Part shown: positions 13,299-30,971 of the stretch, in pieces
Layout of the letters: every line of letters starts with the position of its first letter
Position numbering within the stretch: position 1 is the first letter of the stretch
Source: Rhodospirillaceae bacterium
GTDB lineage: Bacteria; Pseudomonadota; Alphaproteobacteria; CACIAM-22H2
Direction: 5' to 3'
Length of the DNA: 64,000 nucleotides
Assembly: GCA_022843945.1 (NCBI GenBank)
Contig: JALHMR010000006.1
Location: 62,001-126,000 of the forward strand
Made by a program: the position numbers and the translations under genes
Notes under the pieces: model-generated
Database searches by the model: none
Seen by the model: the letters and a program-made list of their open reading frames with translations, nothing else
What the model was told of the DNA's origin: nothing

Positions 13299-13765
13299 AG
13301 CGCCTGCTGCTTTTCGTCGCCCTCGTGGTGATGCTGGCGACGCCGGCCCTGGCCGTGCTGCCCGACGAGATGCTGCAGGACCCAGCGCTGGAGGCGCGGG
13401 CCCGGCTGCTGTCGCGCGAGATCCGCTGCCAGGTCTGCCAGAACCAGTCGATCGACGATTCCGGCGCCCCGCTCGCCGCCGATCTGCGCAAGCTGGTGCG
13501 CGAGCGCCTGACGGCCGGCGATTCGGACGAGGCGGTGTTCGCCTTCCTCACCCGCCGCTACGGCGACAACGTGCTGATGCGCCCGCCGGTGCGGCCGGAG
13601 ACCTGGCCGCTATGGTTCGGCCCGCTCGGCATCCTGGTCGTCGCGGCGATCGGCCTGCTGATCGTCCTGCGTCGCCGGCGGCACGACACGCCGGCCGCGC
13701 CCGCGGCGCTGGCCCCCTCGGAGGAGCGCCGGCTCGCCGAATTGCTGGATCAGGATCGCCGATGA
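13295..13765 (+). CDS. ccmH: cytochrome c biogenesis protein CcmH (CcmL/CycL type)
   Basis: A 156-residue protein with a signal sequence (LLLFVALVVMLATPALA), the redox motif RCQVCQNQSI and a C-terminal membrane helix (residues about 110-128). It holds apocytochrome thiols for CcmF. Only the thiol-disulfide half of E. coli CcmH is present; the TPR half is the separate ccmI, as usual in alphaproteobacteria. It overlaps both ccmG and ccmI by 4 nt. Confidence 0.95.
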   Translation: MKRLLLFVALVVMLATPALAVLPDEMLQDPALEARARLLSREIRCQVCQNQSIDDSGAPLAADLRKLVRERLTAGDSDEAVFAFLTRRYGDNVLMRPPVRPETWPLWFGPLGILVVAAIGLLIVLRRRRHDTPAAPAALAPSEERRLAELLDQDRR

Positions 13766-15165
13766 TCTGGCTCGCCTTCGCTGTCCTCGCCCTGATCGCC
13801 GCGGCGGCGCTGCTGCTCCCGTTCCTGCGGCGGTCTTCGAGCGGCGCCACGCGCGCCGACTACGACGTCGAGATCTATCGCGACCAGCTGGCGGAGATCG
13901 AGCGCGATCTATCCCGCAACCTGATCGGCGAGAGCGAAGCCAGGGCGGCGCGCACCGAGATCGCCCGCCGCGCGCTCGCCGCGGACGCCGAGCGTGCGTC
14001 GACATCCGCCGCCGCGCCCGCCGCGCGCACCATCCCGACCGCGATTCTCGCCCTGGCGGTGATCGTGCCCCTGGGCGCCCTGCTCATCTATCTCGATGTC
14101 GGCTCGCCACGCCTGCCCGGCCAGCCGCTGGCCGCGCGTCACGACACCAACCCGACCGAGGCCGCGCGCCAGGACCAGGCCCTGGTCACCCAGCTCGCCG
14201 AGCGGATGAAGGAGCGCCCCGACGACGTGCAGGGCTGGCTGCTGCTGGCGCGGTCCTACGCCACGCTCGGCCGCCACGACGACGCGGTCACCGCCTGGCG
14301 TAATGTCCGCCGGCTTGCCCCCGAGGCGCCCGAGCATCTCGGCCCGTTCGCCGAGGCGCTGGTTCAGGCGGCGGGCGGCAGCGTCACGCCCGAGGCACTC
14401 TCGTTGTTCCAGGCCGCGACCAAAACCGACGGCAACGACCCGCGACCCCGCTTCTATATCGGCCTCGCCCGCGCCCAGGCCGGCGACAGCCGCGGCGCCC
14501 TGCAGGCGTGGATCGATCTGGTGACCATCTCGCCACCCGATGCGCCGTGGCTGGTCACCGTACGCGGCCAGATCCAGCGCGTCGCGGCGCAGGCCGGGAT
14601 CGATCCCGCCAGTATCGCACCGTCGGCGGAGGCGTCAGCCCAGGCGGCACGCGAGGCCGGCGGGCCGCCCCCGGGCCCGACCGCCGACATGATCGCCCGC
14701 CTGCCGCCGGGCGAGCAGCAGCAGATGATCCGCGGCATGGTTGAATCGCTGGCGGCACGGCTGGAGGCGGAGCCCAACGATGTCGAGGGCTGGCGTCGGC
14801 TGGGCCGGGCCCGGCGCGTGCTCGGCGAAACCGACAAGGCCATCGAAGCCTATGCCAAGGCGGCGGAGCTGGCGCCCGGCCGGGTCGAGGTGCTGAGCGA
14901 CTACGCCGGCCTCCTGTTCGAAGGCATCGGTCCCGGCGACAAGCTGCCGGCGCCTTTCGTGGCGGTCATGGCCAAGATCCTCGCGGCCGACCCCAACCAT
15001 CTCGATGCTCTATGGTTCACCGGCGTTGCCGAGGCGGAAGCCGGACGGCGCGCCGCCGCGGTGGCGCTCTGGCAACGGCTGATCGACCGCCTGCCGCAAG
15101 GCTCGCCGGAGCGCGCCGAGATCGAAACCGAAATCGAGCGCCTGCGCAAACAGGAAGCGAACTGA
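13762..15165 (+). CDS. ccmI: apocytochrome c chaperone CcmI (CycH)
   Basis: A 467-residue protein with two N-terminal membrane helices (about residues 1-22 and 92-113) separated by a cytoplasmic loop with basic and acidic residues. A large periplasmic TPR domain follows (for example WLLLARSYATLGRHDDAV and WRRLGRARRVLGETDKAIEAYAKAAEL). It binds the apocytochrome c C-terminus and delivers it to CcmF/H. Its last 31 nt, including the stop codon, are part of a 32-bp segment duplicated exactly at 16978-17009, beyond the neighbouring methyltransferase gene. Confidence 0.93.
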   Translation: MIWLAFAVLALIAAAALLLPFLRRSSSGATRADYDVEIYRDQLAEIERDLSRNLIGESEARAARTEIARRALAADAERASTSAAAPAARTIPTAILALAVIVPLGALLIYLDVGSPRLPGQPLAARHDTNPTEAARQDQALVTQLAERMKERPDDVQGWLLLARSYATLGRHDDAVTAWRNVRRLAPEAPEHLGPFAEALVQAAGGSVTPEALSLFQAATKTDGNDPRPRFYIGLARAQAGDSRGALQAWIDLVTISPPDAPWLVTVRGQIQRVAAQAGIDPASIAPSAEASAQAAREAGGPPPGPTADMIARLPPGEQQQMIRGMVESLAARLEAEPNDVEGWRRLGRARRVLGETDKAIEAYAKAAELAPGRVEVLSDYAGLLFEGIGPGDKLPAPFVAVMAKILAADPNHLDALWFTGVAEAEAGRRAAAVALWQRLIDRLPQGSPERAEIETEIERLRKQEAN

Positions 15166-15166
15166 G
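15135..15166 (+). repeat. 32-bp direct repeat, copy 1 (end of ccmI)
   Basis: A perfect 32-bp match (beginning CGAGCGCCTGCGC and ending GCGAACTGAG) to 16978-17009. Copy 1 is the native 3' end of ccmI including its TGA. The two copies bracket the TPR-methyltransferase gene, like the ends of an integrated segment. Confidence 0.9.
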
Positions 15167-15375
15167 GCAGGACTTTCGGGCTTTTCGTGCCGGCGCCAAT
15201 CCCGCCCGTCGACTGCCGCAGCACTCGGCGATAAAGCGCTATGAGCCCGGCGTGTTTCGCGCGCCTATAATTGGCAGAGGTGCTTTCGCTTCGTGAAACA
15301 CCGATTCGGCTGCGCGCGACGCTCGTATTATAGTTGCCATCGATTCACGGCATTGCCGTATGCCTTGCCCCGAGC

Positions 15376-16947
15376 ATGAAGCGAATGAGCGAACACACCG
15401 CGGACAGCGACTTTTTAGAAGCGGTTGAGCACCAGCGCGCTGGTCGTACAAGCGAAGCAGCCGAGCTTTGTAATCGGATTCTCGCTGCGGACGCCAACCA
15501 TCCGCGGGCTCTCCATCTTCTGGGTATAATTCAGCTTCAATCCGGAAAGGCTACAGAAGCCATCCGGCTCTTGCAGCGTTCCATAGCCGCTGTACCGGAC
15601 TATGCCGAGGCTCATTTCAATTTAGCGGCAATGTTGGCGTCTAGCGGCGATTTCGTGGGCGCATCACAGCACTACGAGCGTGTCACAGCACTGCGGCCTG
15701 ACCATCCCGAGGCCGCATCACGATATGCTACAACTCTGGTAAAGCTCGGTCAGCCGCGTGAAGCCGAAGCATTTCTTCGGGACAACGTCGCTCGGCAGCC
15801 GAATGATTTCTTTTCGCTGAACGTTTTAAGCTCATTGGCGCTCCAGCGGGGTGATAAGAACGAGGCAGAAGCGTTCGCTCGGCGAGCTGTGTCAACTTCT
15901 TCCTCCTGCGCTCTGTCTCATCTCAGATTGGGTTGTGCTCTTCGGGAGCAGCAGAAGTTTGAAGAGGCTGAGGCCTCTTTTCGCGAAGCCCTGGCAATAG
16001 AGCCGGACGATGATTTAGCGCTTTATTATCTGGGCTCAATTTTTCATGCGCGGCTCGAGTTCGAGAGAGCCGCTCAGTATTTCCAGCGAGCCTTGTCCCT
16101 CAATCCAGAAAATGATGCCGCCAGTGACGGCATGGACCTTATCCGGCAAGGCCTGTCTTTTGGTACGGGATCAGGCTTTCAGGGCGCCCATAGGCCATCG
16201 AGACAGGTTTTTATGTCAGCGGTCGTGTCGTTACTGCGCACGCGTGAACCTCCAGTACGCATACTTGAAATCGGCTCATATATGGGAGCATCGGCCATTA
16301 CTTGGGGGCGCGCGCTAAGCCGCCTCTATTGTCGCTCTAGTTCGCTTCTATGCATCGATCTCTGGGCCGACAACCGCGACCTGCCATACGACGTTCTGAT
16401 GGCGCGGTCCCTGGAGTCGGGGCTGGCGTATCGAACGTTTCTATCGAACATCGCCACCTTGCCAGAGCCTGTGACAGCAATGCATCGGCGGGGACGAAGC
16501 AGTTCCATCCTTCCCGAACTCGAATCAGGCAGTTTTGACATCATATATATCGACGGTTCCCATCGTTACGATGACGTCATCGTGGACGTGAAGGAAGCCA
16601 CGCGGCTGACGCGCGACGGCGGGTTTATCTGCGGCGACGATCTTGAGCTGCAAGCTTCAAGATGTGACATGAACTTCGCTCGCCAAGCCGCAAATGGCGA
16701 CGCTGTATCCGACCCTTACACCGGAGAGACCTTTCATCCAGGCGTCACGTTGGCGTTGCACGAAGTTTTCGGACCAGTATCTGCCTACGACGGTTTTTGG
16801 CTGATGCGGAAGTCGGGAGACAATTACGTCGACGTGTCATTGCGCGAAGCTACCGCCGTCCTACCGACGCATTGGCCACGCAAGATAGTCGAGCAACTCC
16901 GAGCCCGGTTTTCTAGTCGGCAGGAGTTGGCCGGTATTGTTGTCTGA
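15376..16947 (+). CDS. TPR-repeat protein with C-terminal SAM-dependent methyltransferase domain
   Basis: A 523-residue cytoplasmic fusion. The first half (about residues 1-230) is TPR repeats (AVEHQRAGRTSEAAELCNRIL, EQQKFEEAEASFREALAIEP and similar). The second half is a class I methyltransferase of the Methyltransf_24/cephalosporin-hydroxylase-like type, with motif I ILEIGSYMGASAITW and IIYIDGSHRYDDVIVDVKEA. Such proteins often modify sugars or secondary metabolites; the target here is unknown. The DNA is visibly richer in A/T with different codon use from its neighbours, suggesting transfer. ATG 15376 or 15385 are the best starts. Flanked by the 32-bp repeats. Confidence 0.8.
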   Translation: MKRMSEHTADSDFLEAVEHQRAGRTSEAAELCNRILAADANHPRALHLLGIIQLQSGKATEAIRLLQRSIAAVPDYAEAHFNLAAMLASSGDFVGASQHYERVTALRPDHPEAASRYATTLVKLGQPREAEAFLRDNVARQPNDFFSLNVLSSLALQRGDKNEAEAFARRAVSTSSSCALSHLRLGCALREQQKFEEAEASFREALAIEPDDDLALYYLGSIFHARLEFERAAQYFQRALSLNPENDAASDGMDLIRQGLSFGTGSGFQGAHRPSRQVFMSAVVSLLRTREPPVRILEIGSYMGASAITWGRALSRLYCRSSSLLCIDLWADNRDLPYDVLMARSLESGLAYRTFLSNIATLPEPVTAMHRRGRSSSILPELESGSFDIIYIDGSHRYDDVIVDVKEATRLTRDGGFICGDDLELQASRCDMNFARQAANGDAVSDPYTGETFHPGVTLALHEVFGPVSAYDGFWLMRKSGDNYVDVSLREATAVLPTHWPRKIVEQLRARFSSRQELAGIVV

Positions 16948-16977
16948 GCTTTGGCCATCGGCAAGCGCGCTCAGCGG

Positions 16978-17009
16978 CGAGCGCCTGCGCAAACAGGAAG
17001 CGAACTGAG
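16978..17009 (+). repeat. 32-bp direct repeat, copy 2
   Basis: An exact second copy of the last 31 coding bases of ccmI plus one base, with no gene body attached. Bases outside the copies differ on both sides, so the match ends sharply. It marks the right edge of the probable insertion (15167-16977). Confidence 0.9.
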
Positions 17010-17069
17010 CGGCTGAGGCCGGGCGTCAAACGCGCCTGCTCATGACGTCAGGGAGACTGGCTGGCGGCT

Positions 17070-17167
17070 CACCCCACCCTACCCTCCCCACAAGGGGGGA
17101 GGGTTTAGGAGAGCGGCTCTCTTATCTTCCCCCTCCCCCTTGAGGGGGGAGGGTTGGGGTGGGGGTG
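17070..17167. repeat. C-rich/G-rich inverted repeat element
   Basis: The left arm CACCCCACCCTACCCTCCCC and the right arm GGGGAGGGTTGGGGTGGGGG are near reverse complements. Each arm also folds on a local CTCCCC/GGGGAG hairpin. It lies between the convergent ccm/methyltransferase unit and the OmpA-like gene. It is of the dispersed intergenic repeat type and could end transcription in both directions. Confidence 0.65.
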
Positions 17168-17187
17168 CTCCGTGACGCTAGAACTTC

Positions 17188-18081
17188 TTAGCGGGCCACG
17201 ATCTCCGCCCGGCGGTTCTGCGGCTCACGCGCGCCGTCGGGCGTCGGCACCAGCGGCTGGGTTTCGCCGCGTGCCTCGGTGACGATCTGGTTCTGCGGCA
17301 CCCCGGCGCGGATCAGCGCCGCGCGCACCGCATTCGCCCGACGTCCCGACAAAGCCATGTTGTAGGCATCGGAGCCGGAGCGGTCGGCATGTCCGACGAC
17401 CTCGATGCGCGCCGTCCCGCCGCGACGCACGTTGTCGGCGGCGGTGCGAATCACCGCCTGCGCCTCCGGCGTCAGGTCGGAGCGGTCGAAGTCGAAGAAC
17501 ACCAGCCACTGCTGGGCGCCGGCGGGACGCGCGGCGGGTGCCGCGGGAGCCGGGGCCGGTGGCGCGGCGGCCGTGGCCGGTCGGCGCTCCAGCTCGGCCA
17601 TTGCCGTCTCGAAATCACGCCGGCAGTTCTGCACCTTCTCGTTCAGCCACTGGCCTTCGACCGCGAAGATCGGATCGGCGGCTTCGTCGAGCCAGCAGTC
17701 GTAGGCGCCCTGGGCCCGCGCCGCGACCGGCGGCGCCGCCACCGTGGCATTCGCCTGCAGTGCCGTGACCAGGCGCTGGCGCGCACTCGTCAGCTCGTCG
17801 GCGAGCTTCACGGGTATGAAGCCTTTTTCCCCCGGAACATCGGGGGCGACAGCCTCACCGCGCGCCGCGCGCATCGATTTGCGGGCAAAATGCTCGGAGC
17901 CGGAGAAATCGTACTGGCCCTGCCACTGGTTCTCGGCCATGGCCAGATACGTCGCGCTCTGGGCGCGGCTGAACTCGCTGCCGCCTTGCGGCTGGGTACG
18001 CTGGGCCTTCTGCAGTTCGGTGGTGCAGGCGCCGGCCAGCAGGACGCAGGCGGCGAGGGCGAACGGGGCAAGACGCTTCAT
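17188..18081 (-). CDS. OmpA-family envelope protein, possible lipoprotein
   Basis: A 297-residue exported protein. The N-terminus is signal-like with a Cys at about residue 19 (LLAGACTTE), a possible though imperfect lipobox. A helical middle part (about 25-180) and an Ala/Pro linker (about 185-205) lead to a C-terminal OmpA peptidoglycan-binding domain (FFDFDRSDLTPEAQAVI, VVGHADRSGSDAYNMALSGRRANAV). It probably tethers the outer membrane to peptidoglycan. The start is ATG 18081 with AGAGAGGA just upstream; a longer open frame into the upstream gap has no family support. The leader can pair with the ribosome-binding site (18091-18149). Confidence 0.9.
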   Translation of the reverse strand: MKRLAPFALAACVLLAGACTTELQKAQRTQPQGGSEFSRAQSATYLAMAENQWQGQYDFSGSEHFARKSMRAARGEAVAPDVPGEKGFIPVKLADELTSARQRLVTALQANATVAAPPVAARAQGAYDCWLDEAADPIFAVEGQWLNEKVQNCRRDFETAMAELERRPATAAAPPAPAPAAPAARPAGAQQWLVFFDFDRSDLTPEAQAVIRTAADNVRRGGTARIEVVGHADRSGSDAYNMALSGRRANAVRAALIRAGVPQNQIVTEARGETQPLVPTPDGAREPQNRRAEIVAR

Positions 18082-18090
18082 GGCTTTCCT

Positions 18091-18149
18091 CTCTCTACGA
18101 GATGGCACGCGCCCCTGTGCCCCCTGGACGCGTCGCTGACGGTAGAGAG
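18091..18149 (-). promoter_or_regulatory. leader stem that would cover the OmpA-gene ribosome-binding site
   Basis: Read on the minus strand, CTCTCTAC (18142-18149) can pair perfectly with GTAGAGAG (18091-18098). The latter runs into the AGGA of the ribosome-binding site of the OmpA-like gene. The loop contains a second 5-bp hairpin, GGCAC/GTGCC. Such pairing could limit translation until melted or bound; inferred from complementarity only. Confidence 0.35.
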
Positions 18150-18215
18150 GTAAGCTTGGCCGTCGGCCGATCAACCCGGCAGAACTACCCCAGAAGAGGT
18201 AGTCCGGAGTGCGGC

Positions 18216-19097
18216 TCAGCGGCGAGCGCGCACCAGATCGATGATCTTGCTCTCGTTCTGCGCGCCCAGGCCGGCGGCCTGCAACTCGCGCAGGACCCGC
18301 ACCGATGCCTTGCCGAGACGGGCGTCGAGACCGTAGCGCCGCGCCAGGTCGAGACCGTAGAGCGTGTCCTTCAGGCGCAGCGTGCCGGAAAAGACGATCT
18401 CCCGGTCGTGGTGCTTGTCGCGCATCGCCTTGGCATTGCGGATGACCTGCGGGCTCGCGGCGGCCCCGCGGCAGATCGTCTCCGCCACCTGCTGCAGGTC
18501 GAGGCCCGCGCGCTCGGCCATGACCAGCCCCTCGGCCAGCGCGCCGATCTGGATCGAGCCCATCAGGTTGACCAGCAGCTTGTAGGCGTTGGCGGTGCCG
18601 ACCGGGCCGAAATGCACGAGCGAGCCGGCGATGGCGCCGAAGACCGGCCGCAGCGCCGCGATGTCCTTTTTGTCGGCGCCCAGGAACAGGGTCAGCTCGC
18701 CGGCGGCGGCGACGCTGGGGATGCCGGTCACCGGGCAGTCGACGAAGCGCACGCCGCGCGCCTCGACCTGCCTGGCCAGGCGCTTGATCCAGCCATGCGA
18801 CAGGGTCGAGCACTCGACCGCCCAGGCTTTCGACGCCAGCGTTGCCTTCATCGCGCCCTGCCGGCCGAGCCAGACCTCGCGCGAGGCGCGATCATCGGCG
18901 ACCATGGCGAAAATCACCGACGCCCCCTCCGCCGCCTCGCGCGGGCTGGCGGCCAGTGTCGCGCCCAGCCGCACCAGCGCCTTCGCCTTGGCGGCGGTGC
19001 GATTGTAGACCGCCACCTTGTAGCCGGCCTGCACCAGGCGCGTGGCCATGGCCGAGCCCATGTTACCGAGCCCGAGAAAAGCAATCCTGTGTTTCAT
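18216..19097 (-). CDS. NAD(P)-dependent beta-hydroxyacid dehydrogenase family protein
   Basis: A 293-residue enzyme of the 3-hydroxyisobutyrate dehydrogenase/tartronate semialdehyde reductase family. The Rossmann motif FLGLGNMGSAMATRLV opens the protein, with VAVYNRT binding the cofactor. The substrate motif DCPVTGIPSVAAAGELT lies near residue 125 and the catalytic Lys block GTANAYKLLVNLM near 175. It reduces or oxidises small beta-hydroxy or semialdehyde acids; substrate unknown. It starts 4 nt after the CHASE2 cyclase stop, so it belongs to that transcription unit, an unexpected pairing. Confidence 0.9.
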   Translation of the reverse strand: MKHRIAFLGLGNMGSAMATRLVQAGYKVAVYNRTAAKAKALVRLGATLAASPREAAEGASVIFAMVADDRASREVWLGRQGAMKATLASKAWAVECSTLSHGWIKRLARQVEARGVRFVDCPVTGIPSVAAAGELTLFLGADKKDIAALRPVFGAIAGSLVHFGPVGTANAYKLLVNLMGSIQIGALAEGLVMAERAGLDLQQVAETICRGAAASPQVIRNAKAMRDKHHDREIVFSGTLRLKDTLYGLDLARRYGLDARLGKASVRVLRELQAAGLGAQNESKIIDLVRARR

Positions 19098-30071: not shown

Positions 30072-30971
30072 ATGGCCCGCCTCCCGCCGCTCAACGCCCT
30101 GCGCGCCTTTGAGGCCGCCGCCCGGCATCTCAGCTTCAATGCCGCGGCCGACGAGCTGAACGTCACGCCGGCCGCGATCAGCCACCAGATCAAGGCGCTG
30201 GAGGCCGATCTCGGGATCAAGCTGTTCCGCCGCCTCAATCGGGCGGTGCGCCTGACCGATGCCGGCCAGGCCTGCCTGCCGGGCCTGCGCGATGGTTTCG
30301 AGCGCATCGCCGAAGCGGTGGCGCGGGCCCGGCAGGGCGACAGCCTCGGCCTGCTCACCGTGACGGCCTCGCCGGCGATCGCCTCAAAATGGCTGGTCCC
30401 CCGGCTCGAACGCTTCCGCGCCCGCCATCCAGCGATCGACCTGCGCATCGACGCCTCGATGCGCCTGGTCGATTTCGCGCGCGAGGATGTGCATGTCGGG
30501 TTGCGCTACGGCACCGGCAACTATCCCGGCCTGCACACCGAGCTTCTGCTGCGCAGCGAGATGTTTCCCGTCTGCTCGCCCGCTCTACTCAAGGGCAAGC
30601 ATCCGCTGCGCAAGCCCGATGACCTGCGGCATCACACGCTGATCCATGACGAGACGGCGACGCTCGAGCCCGACGGTCCCGACTGGGCGATGTGGCTGCG
30701 CGCCGCCGGTGTCACCGACATCGATACCAGCCATGGCCTGCGCTTCAACCTGGTGGCGCTGGCCACGGACGCGGCGATCAACGGACGTGGCGTGATGCTG
30801 GCGCGCAACGTCTTCGCCGACGACGACCTGGCCGCCGGGCGCCTGGTACGCCCGTTCGGCGGAGCGACACCGGTCAACTTCGCTGTTTACGTGGTGATTC
30901 CGCCGGCCCTGGTCACCGCACCCAAGGTCAAGGCGTTCCGCGACTGGCTGCTCGAAGAGGCGAAGGCCTAG
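30072..30971 (+). CDS. GcvA-like LysR transcriptional regulator (first copy)
   Basis: A 299-residue LysR regulator. The N-terminal helix-turn-helix region ([40 protein letters not shown]) is diagnostic of the GcvA branch. A periplasmic-binding-like effector domain follows from about residue 90. It is divergent from the DUF1127 gene and so likely controls it; effector unknown. Its closest relative in the window is the regulator at 47819, which sits in the same context. It overlaps rlmN tail-to-tail by 4 nt. Confidence 0.95.

Follow-up and report, generated by a model that had tools for sequence, protein, structure and literature searches.

Integrative elements that enter at the 3′ end of a gene, with attL and attR at their borders, leave a direct repeat of that gene end on both sides of foreign-looking DNA. 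Transposons duplicate their target site, the usual duplications being shorter than 32 bp. The repair of double-strand breaks by template switching or Ku-dependent end joining is expected to generate patchwork junctions with microhomology. In homology-facilitated illegitimate recombination (HFIR), foreign DNA taken up in natural transformation is joined to the chromosome at one of its ends through a microhomology that is short and often rich in GC, as described in three reports (PMC8504540, PMC6382021, PMC3240628). These reports give 3-10 nt of identity as anchors, with high-GC segments being preferred in S. pneumoniae (PMC8504540), and describe the integration of 3-10 bp segments (PMC6382021). 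For spontaneous rearrangements in Salmonella, a survey deduces a cut-off of at least 11 bp at the junction of duplications (PMC3411829). Among the papers listed in searches on HFIR, hotspots and duplications, none was seen to describe the locus presented below.

The locus lies in a window of 64 kb (the whole stretch of DNA that was analysed). As in elements bounded by attL and attR, the 3′ end of a gene is directly repeated on both sides of foreign-looking DNA; unlike in those elements, the segment has no recombinase, the repeat does not recur and the right end is chimeric. The repeated gene end is that of ccmI, a cytochrome c biogenesis gene (13762-15165, + strand; start codon picked by eye) with a TPR_CcmH_CycH domain (Pfam PF23914, E 3.8e-35). 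An exact repeat search confirmed that, as the initial annotation had claimed, 15135-15166 matches 16978-17009 in all of its 32 bp; both copies lie on the + strand, in direct orientation. The left copy is the ccmI 3′ end, with the stop codon ending at 15165 and the repeat extending 1 nt past it, and the right copy is a second ccmI tail. This pair is the longest exact direct repeat of the window. The runner-up, a 25-bp exact direct repeat, is found at 30928 and 48654, with its copies 17.7 kb apart. In the 5.38-Mb genome to which the window belongs, the 32-mer was present at two places only, both at this locus, even with up to three mismatches allowed. The bases outside the two copies, which had been described as different, are unlike indeed: the gapped local alignment score of the sequences downstream of the copies was reached by 158 of 200 shuffles.

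The DNA following the left copy (15167-16968, named X1; GC 0.565) contains a gene coding for TPR repeats and, after them, a Methyltransf_24 domain (15376-16947, + strand; Pfam domain matches); its product was assigned to the class I SAM methyltransferases. The ORFs of at least 80 aa touching this segment were the methyltransferase gene itself, one ORF within it and two running into ccmI. None codes for a recombinase, in agreement with the initial annotation, and no transposase-like ORF of that size was present in the segment. The view that a single gene with lower GC and another codon use lies between the copies also held, its GC3 being 0.57 versus 0.88 for ccmI, 0.85 for the OmpA-like gene and 0.92 for the dehydrogenase gene that follow downstream.

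The right junction contains more than a ccmI tail. Positions 16969-16984 (+ strand) are an exact copy of 18214-18229 (+ strand), which is the native 3′ end, stop codon included, of a convergent gene located 1.2 kb away. This gene (18216-19097, - strand) resembles those for 3-hydroxyisobutyrate dehydrogenases, although its NCBIfam matches fall under the curated cut-offs. The copied dehydrogenase tail overlaps the right ccmI tail by 7 bp, CGAGCGC (16978-16984, + strand; six of the seven bases are G or C), so that the 41 bp at 16969-17009 read, in order, dehydrogenase tail, CGAGCGC and ccmI tail. Since the tails of both genes contain CGAGCGC and overlap there, this stretch is a chimera, and the shared 7-mer is the proposed fusion point. 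In the genome, GCTCAGCGG lies between ccmI and the sequence after 17009.

The 16-mer of the dehydrogenase tail has two exact sites in the 5.4-Mb genome, both at this locus. Eight sites differ from it by one mismatch; with up to two mismatches allowed, the count is 97, compared with 31 for the reversed-pattern control. The 7-mer CGAGCGC occurs at 37 + strand sites in the window, which make 666 pairs; the nine bases upstream agree in the pair 16978/18223 only, the next best three pairs agreeing over five. In a first-order Markov model of the window, the 16-mer appeared in 1 of 300 copies. Exact pairs of this length are not rare in the window: there are 29 exact direct pairs of at least 16 bp, of which nine, counting the 32-mer and the studied 16-mer, lie less than 5 kb apart, and another 16-bp exact pair, 14470/18261, lies in the same region. 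Weight is therefore placed on the position of the match rather than on its length. A boundary test of the same kind, accepting any partner, was passed by 455 of the 64000 window positions, the studied pairs included; this count was made before the partner was also required to be the next boundary gene's tail. The junction test was post hoc, having been made after the 16-bp match was noticed.

With this chimeric junction at its centre, the locus reads as two tandem slots, each running from a ccmI tail to a dehydrogenase tail. Judged from the sequence, slot 1 holds the methyltransferase gene (X1), bounded on the left by ccmI, and slot 2 (content 17010-18213, named X2; GC 0.70) holds an OmpA-like gene (17188-18081, - strand, its NCBIfam matches all under the curated cut-offs), with the native dehydrogenase 3′ end as its right edge. 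The OmpA-like gene has two more near-full-length paralogues in the genome (57 and 56%), among 10 matching stretches in all. The outer edges of X1 and X2 are identical: both contents start after the ccmI stop codon plus 1 nt and finish 2 nt before the dehydrogenase stop codon. The flanks just inside these edges are unrelated on the ccmI side, as seen in the shuffle comparison above. On the dehydrogenase side they have a weak similarity over 16 nt, which 6 of 200 shuffles matched or exceeded. A plain tandem duplication with a common content was therefore rejected: the two units hold different genes, and their flanks do not align on one side and are only weakly alike on the other.

Twenty-three genomes of the family were searched, one congener (G001) among them. 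In G001, 15 nt separate a ccmI orthologue (68% identical) from the end of the dehydrogenase gene (67% identical), and both the methyltransferase gene and the OmpA-like gene are missing from this gap; the contents of both slots are thus absent from this place. In G006, a member of the same family, the ccmI match adjoins an adenylate cyclase-like gene and no dehydrogenase match lies between. The initial annotation had predicted an empty site in which the end of ccmI would be followed directly by the sequence after 17009. G001 lacks the methyltransferase gene here, but the predicted joint was not found, the OmpA-like gene being missing too. The arrangement in G001 agrees with insertion in the genome studied, or may reflect loss in G001.

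The methyltransferase gene was probably acquired. A search with the full-length protein gave matches in 38 of 41 relatives; among the matches listed, the best ones outside its own genome cover the TPR part (residues 10-221, the best at 1.6e-35). The methyltransferase part was therefore searched alone, and its distribution in the class proved patchy: 40 of 385 genomes have it at E ≤ 0.001 and nine, this one included, below 1e-20. The domain gave no match in the three family members named in the class sample (G003, G004 and G005). A collection of named genomes yielded 18 methyltransferase loci, the best with 45% identity, indicating that no close relative is present in that collection. Among phage records no relative of the domain was found, while plasmid records contained two, both from Azospirillum.

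A second gene for a TPR-methyltransferase is present in the same genome (L063:6554-7828, corresponding to G000:C1:20553-21827), as a single-gene insertion between engB and argB. Over the domain it is 52% identical to the slot-1 gene, and the two copies are sisters in a 16-row tree (support 100/99; long branches). In four of the five relatives in which argB was found, engB lies directly upstream of it; in G001, engB was not present within the 1.5 kb read. The sixth genome searched, G003, gave no argB. The second copy has no exact flanking direct repeat of at least 14 bp. More generally, 15 other loci of the gene family were examined: this second copy and 14, with one gene apiece, picked among the stronger class-search matches. 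Within 1.5 kb, none of them is flanked by an exact direct repeat of at least 15 bp; one has a repeat of 14 bp. This indicates that the 32-bp repeat belongs to the site rather than to the gene.

Several small elements were detected inside the slots. A short palindromic repeat lies in the left flank of X1 (15279-15302); as a DNA fold, 15274-15310 does not stand out (z -0.77). With up to two mismatches it has four sites in the genome, this one included, and four in the congener, two of the latter in near-identical contig ends; the reversed-pattern control gave 0 in both genomes. Two of the sites in the genome are 0.5 kb apart on G000:C42, at least one site in the congener lies between ORFs and, by eye, the variable positions differ in a manner that preserves pairing. 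Nearby, 15192-15223 shows a 32-bp, 91% match, possibly by chance, to a gene of the family member G013, which by eye we take to be that for tRNA dimethylallyltransferase (miaA). The matches to this segment in the genome itself and in the congener are short, and miaA was not recognised in them. In X2, a long GC-rich hairpin spans 17064-17172 (DNA fold z -4.98; none of 200 shuffles reached its stability). It could be a REP-like element or a two-way terminator; short weak matches to it occur in Azospirillum loci (E 0.002 to 0.34). A promoter scan returned 0 promoter-like sites (shuffle mean 0.7), and a terminator scan returned six terminator-like sites versus a shuffle mean of 3.4 (sd 1.9), which decided nothing.

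The best reading of the 32-bp repeat is that an uneven recombination left it as a scar, not that it is the signature of a mobile element, and the chimeric right copy supports the suggestion of a recombination scar already present in the initial annotation. The explanation preferred here, to which we assign a probability of roughly one half, is that microhomology served to join, in tandem, two variants of a single intergenic site. In one version of the site, ccmI would have been separated from the dehydrogenase gene by the methyltransferase gene; in the other, by the OmpA-like gene. Illegitimate crossing-over at CGAGCGC would then have fused the dehydrogenase tail of the first version to the ccmI tail of the second; a crossover at this 7-mer between two slots would be the simplest single event capable of making the junction. 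The sequence at 16969-17009 matches the joint expected from such a fusion, which supports the joining of alleles, as do the common outer edges of X1 and X2 and the gap of 15 nt in G001. As the contents of the slots differ, these would most easily be two variants of the same site, one of them arriving by transfer, and two different contents of one site would have inner flanks of the kind seen here, with no relation on the ccmI side and at most a weak likeness on the other. The two 32-bp copies, the 41-bp chimera, the unusual composition of slot 1 and a congener lacking both genes at this place are seen directly; the existence of two alleles, any direction of transfer and the enzymes are inferred.

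HFIR would be one route to this outcome, with homology in ccmI itself anchoring the incoming DNA and the microhomology joining its other end. In the mirror image, the incoming DNA would be anchored in the dehydrogenase gene and the slot with the OmpA-like gene would be the one arriving; the final sequence would be identical, so that it does not tell the order in which the contents came. The genome encodes Ku (PF02735, E 3.9e-46), and an end-joining route is therefore possible as well. The locus resembles HFIR products in that the microhomology at the illegitimate joint, here the 7-bp GC-rich CGAGCGC, falls within the 3-10 bp range, and in that foreign DNA was added, as judged from the GC3 of 0.57 versus 0.85-0.92 in the neighbours and from its absence at this place in G001, where loss is possible. 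It differs from them in that the incoming content seems to derive from a relative's version of this site, in that the junction rebuilds a second ccmI tail, and in being known from the sequence of one genome alone. Nothing would make a blind duplication halt at stop codons, and the joining of alleles would explain edges placed there only if intergenic contents had earlier been exchanged as whole blocks. Since 7 bp is below the duplication cut-off deduced for Salmonella (PMC3411829), a joint of this length would be a rare event.

The same junction would also arise if duplication came first. A slippage at CGAGCGC would have duplicated in tandem the 41 bp of an empty ccmI-dehydrogenase junction; at a later time, the first copy would have captured the methyltransferase gene and the second the OmpA-like gene. 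The empty unit deduced in this manner would place the convergent stop codons 3 nt apart, near the 15 nt seen in G001, and the bacterial survey reports spontaneous rearrangements with short junction repeats, duplications included, to be frequent (PMC3411829). The locus is also like a microhomology tandem duplication in that the 3′ edge of a unit meets its 5′ edge at a short direct repeat, CGAGCGC in this case, but unlike one in that its units carry different genes, with left flanks that are unrelated. The scheme would require two captures, independent of each other yet at the same nucleotide position in both units. Further, in the survey, five of the eight duplications tested were verified, those with 7 and 9 bp not being among them (PMC3411829). 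This sequence of events is considered unlikely.

In another scheme, held to be improbable, a double-strand break at the ccmI end would have been repaired with the capture of foreign DNA, the right end being patched from the dehydrogenase and ccmI tails by template switching or Ku-dependent end joining. The presence of Ku and the patchwork nature of the junction fit such a repair. However, two consecutive template patches would have to rebuild a full slot by chance, while the joining of alleles needs a single junction. This repair and the duplication-first scheme both give the junction that allele joining gives, and the three differ only in what they predict for sister strains.

The first impression left by the locus had been that a recombinase acting in trans integrated the methyltransferase segment site-specifically at the 3′ end of ccmI, with the 32 bp as attL and attR. 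The exact 32-bp direct repeats bordering the segment, the placing of the target at the 3′ end of a gene and the unusual composition of the segment speak for it. Against it stand the lack of a recombinase ORF of at least 80 aa in the segment, the absence of the 32-mer, with or without other cargo, from the rest of the genome, and the 0 of 15 other family loci with flanking exact direct repeats of at least 15 bp. These same observations led us to reject a minimal-cargo element as the main reading. Further, an att model does not predict a dehydrogenase tail joined at 7 bp in front of the right copy, and would leave 16969-16984 to chance; site-specific integration is thus quite doubtful. A chance 16-bp match, or an assembly error merging strain variants in tandem, is very improbable: exact pairs of 16 bp are present elsewhere in this GC-rich window, but the position is special (only the pair 16978/18223 shares nine upstream bases, and only 455 of 64000 positions pass the boundary test), the region is well inside a 192-kb contig, and an assembler would not join two paths over as little as 7 bp of overlap. 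A transposon with target duplication was rejected on account of the length of the repeat, 32 bp being too long, and of the absence of a transposase-like ORF of at least 80 aa.

The joining of two variants of a site through microhomology is a known kind of event. A more far-reaching version, in which the gap between ccmI and the dehydrogenase gene would be a self-renewing capture slot, is speculative and most improbable; each gene would arrive with rebuilt copies of both gene tails, leaving a site that could be refilled without a recombinase, and a cassette-like array would grow from the microhomology recombination of the host alone. The locus illustrates that an apparent attL/attR pair lacking a recombinase can arise through the uneven, microhomology-driven joining of two variants of an intergenic site, and the tail of the opposite boundary gene beside the repeat provides a simple diagnostic. 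If single-slot forms turn up in sister strains, the locus would document, in nature, the stacking of genes between core genes without a recombinase.
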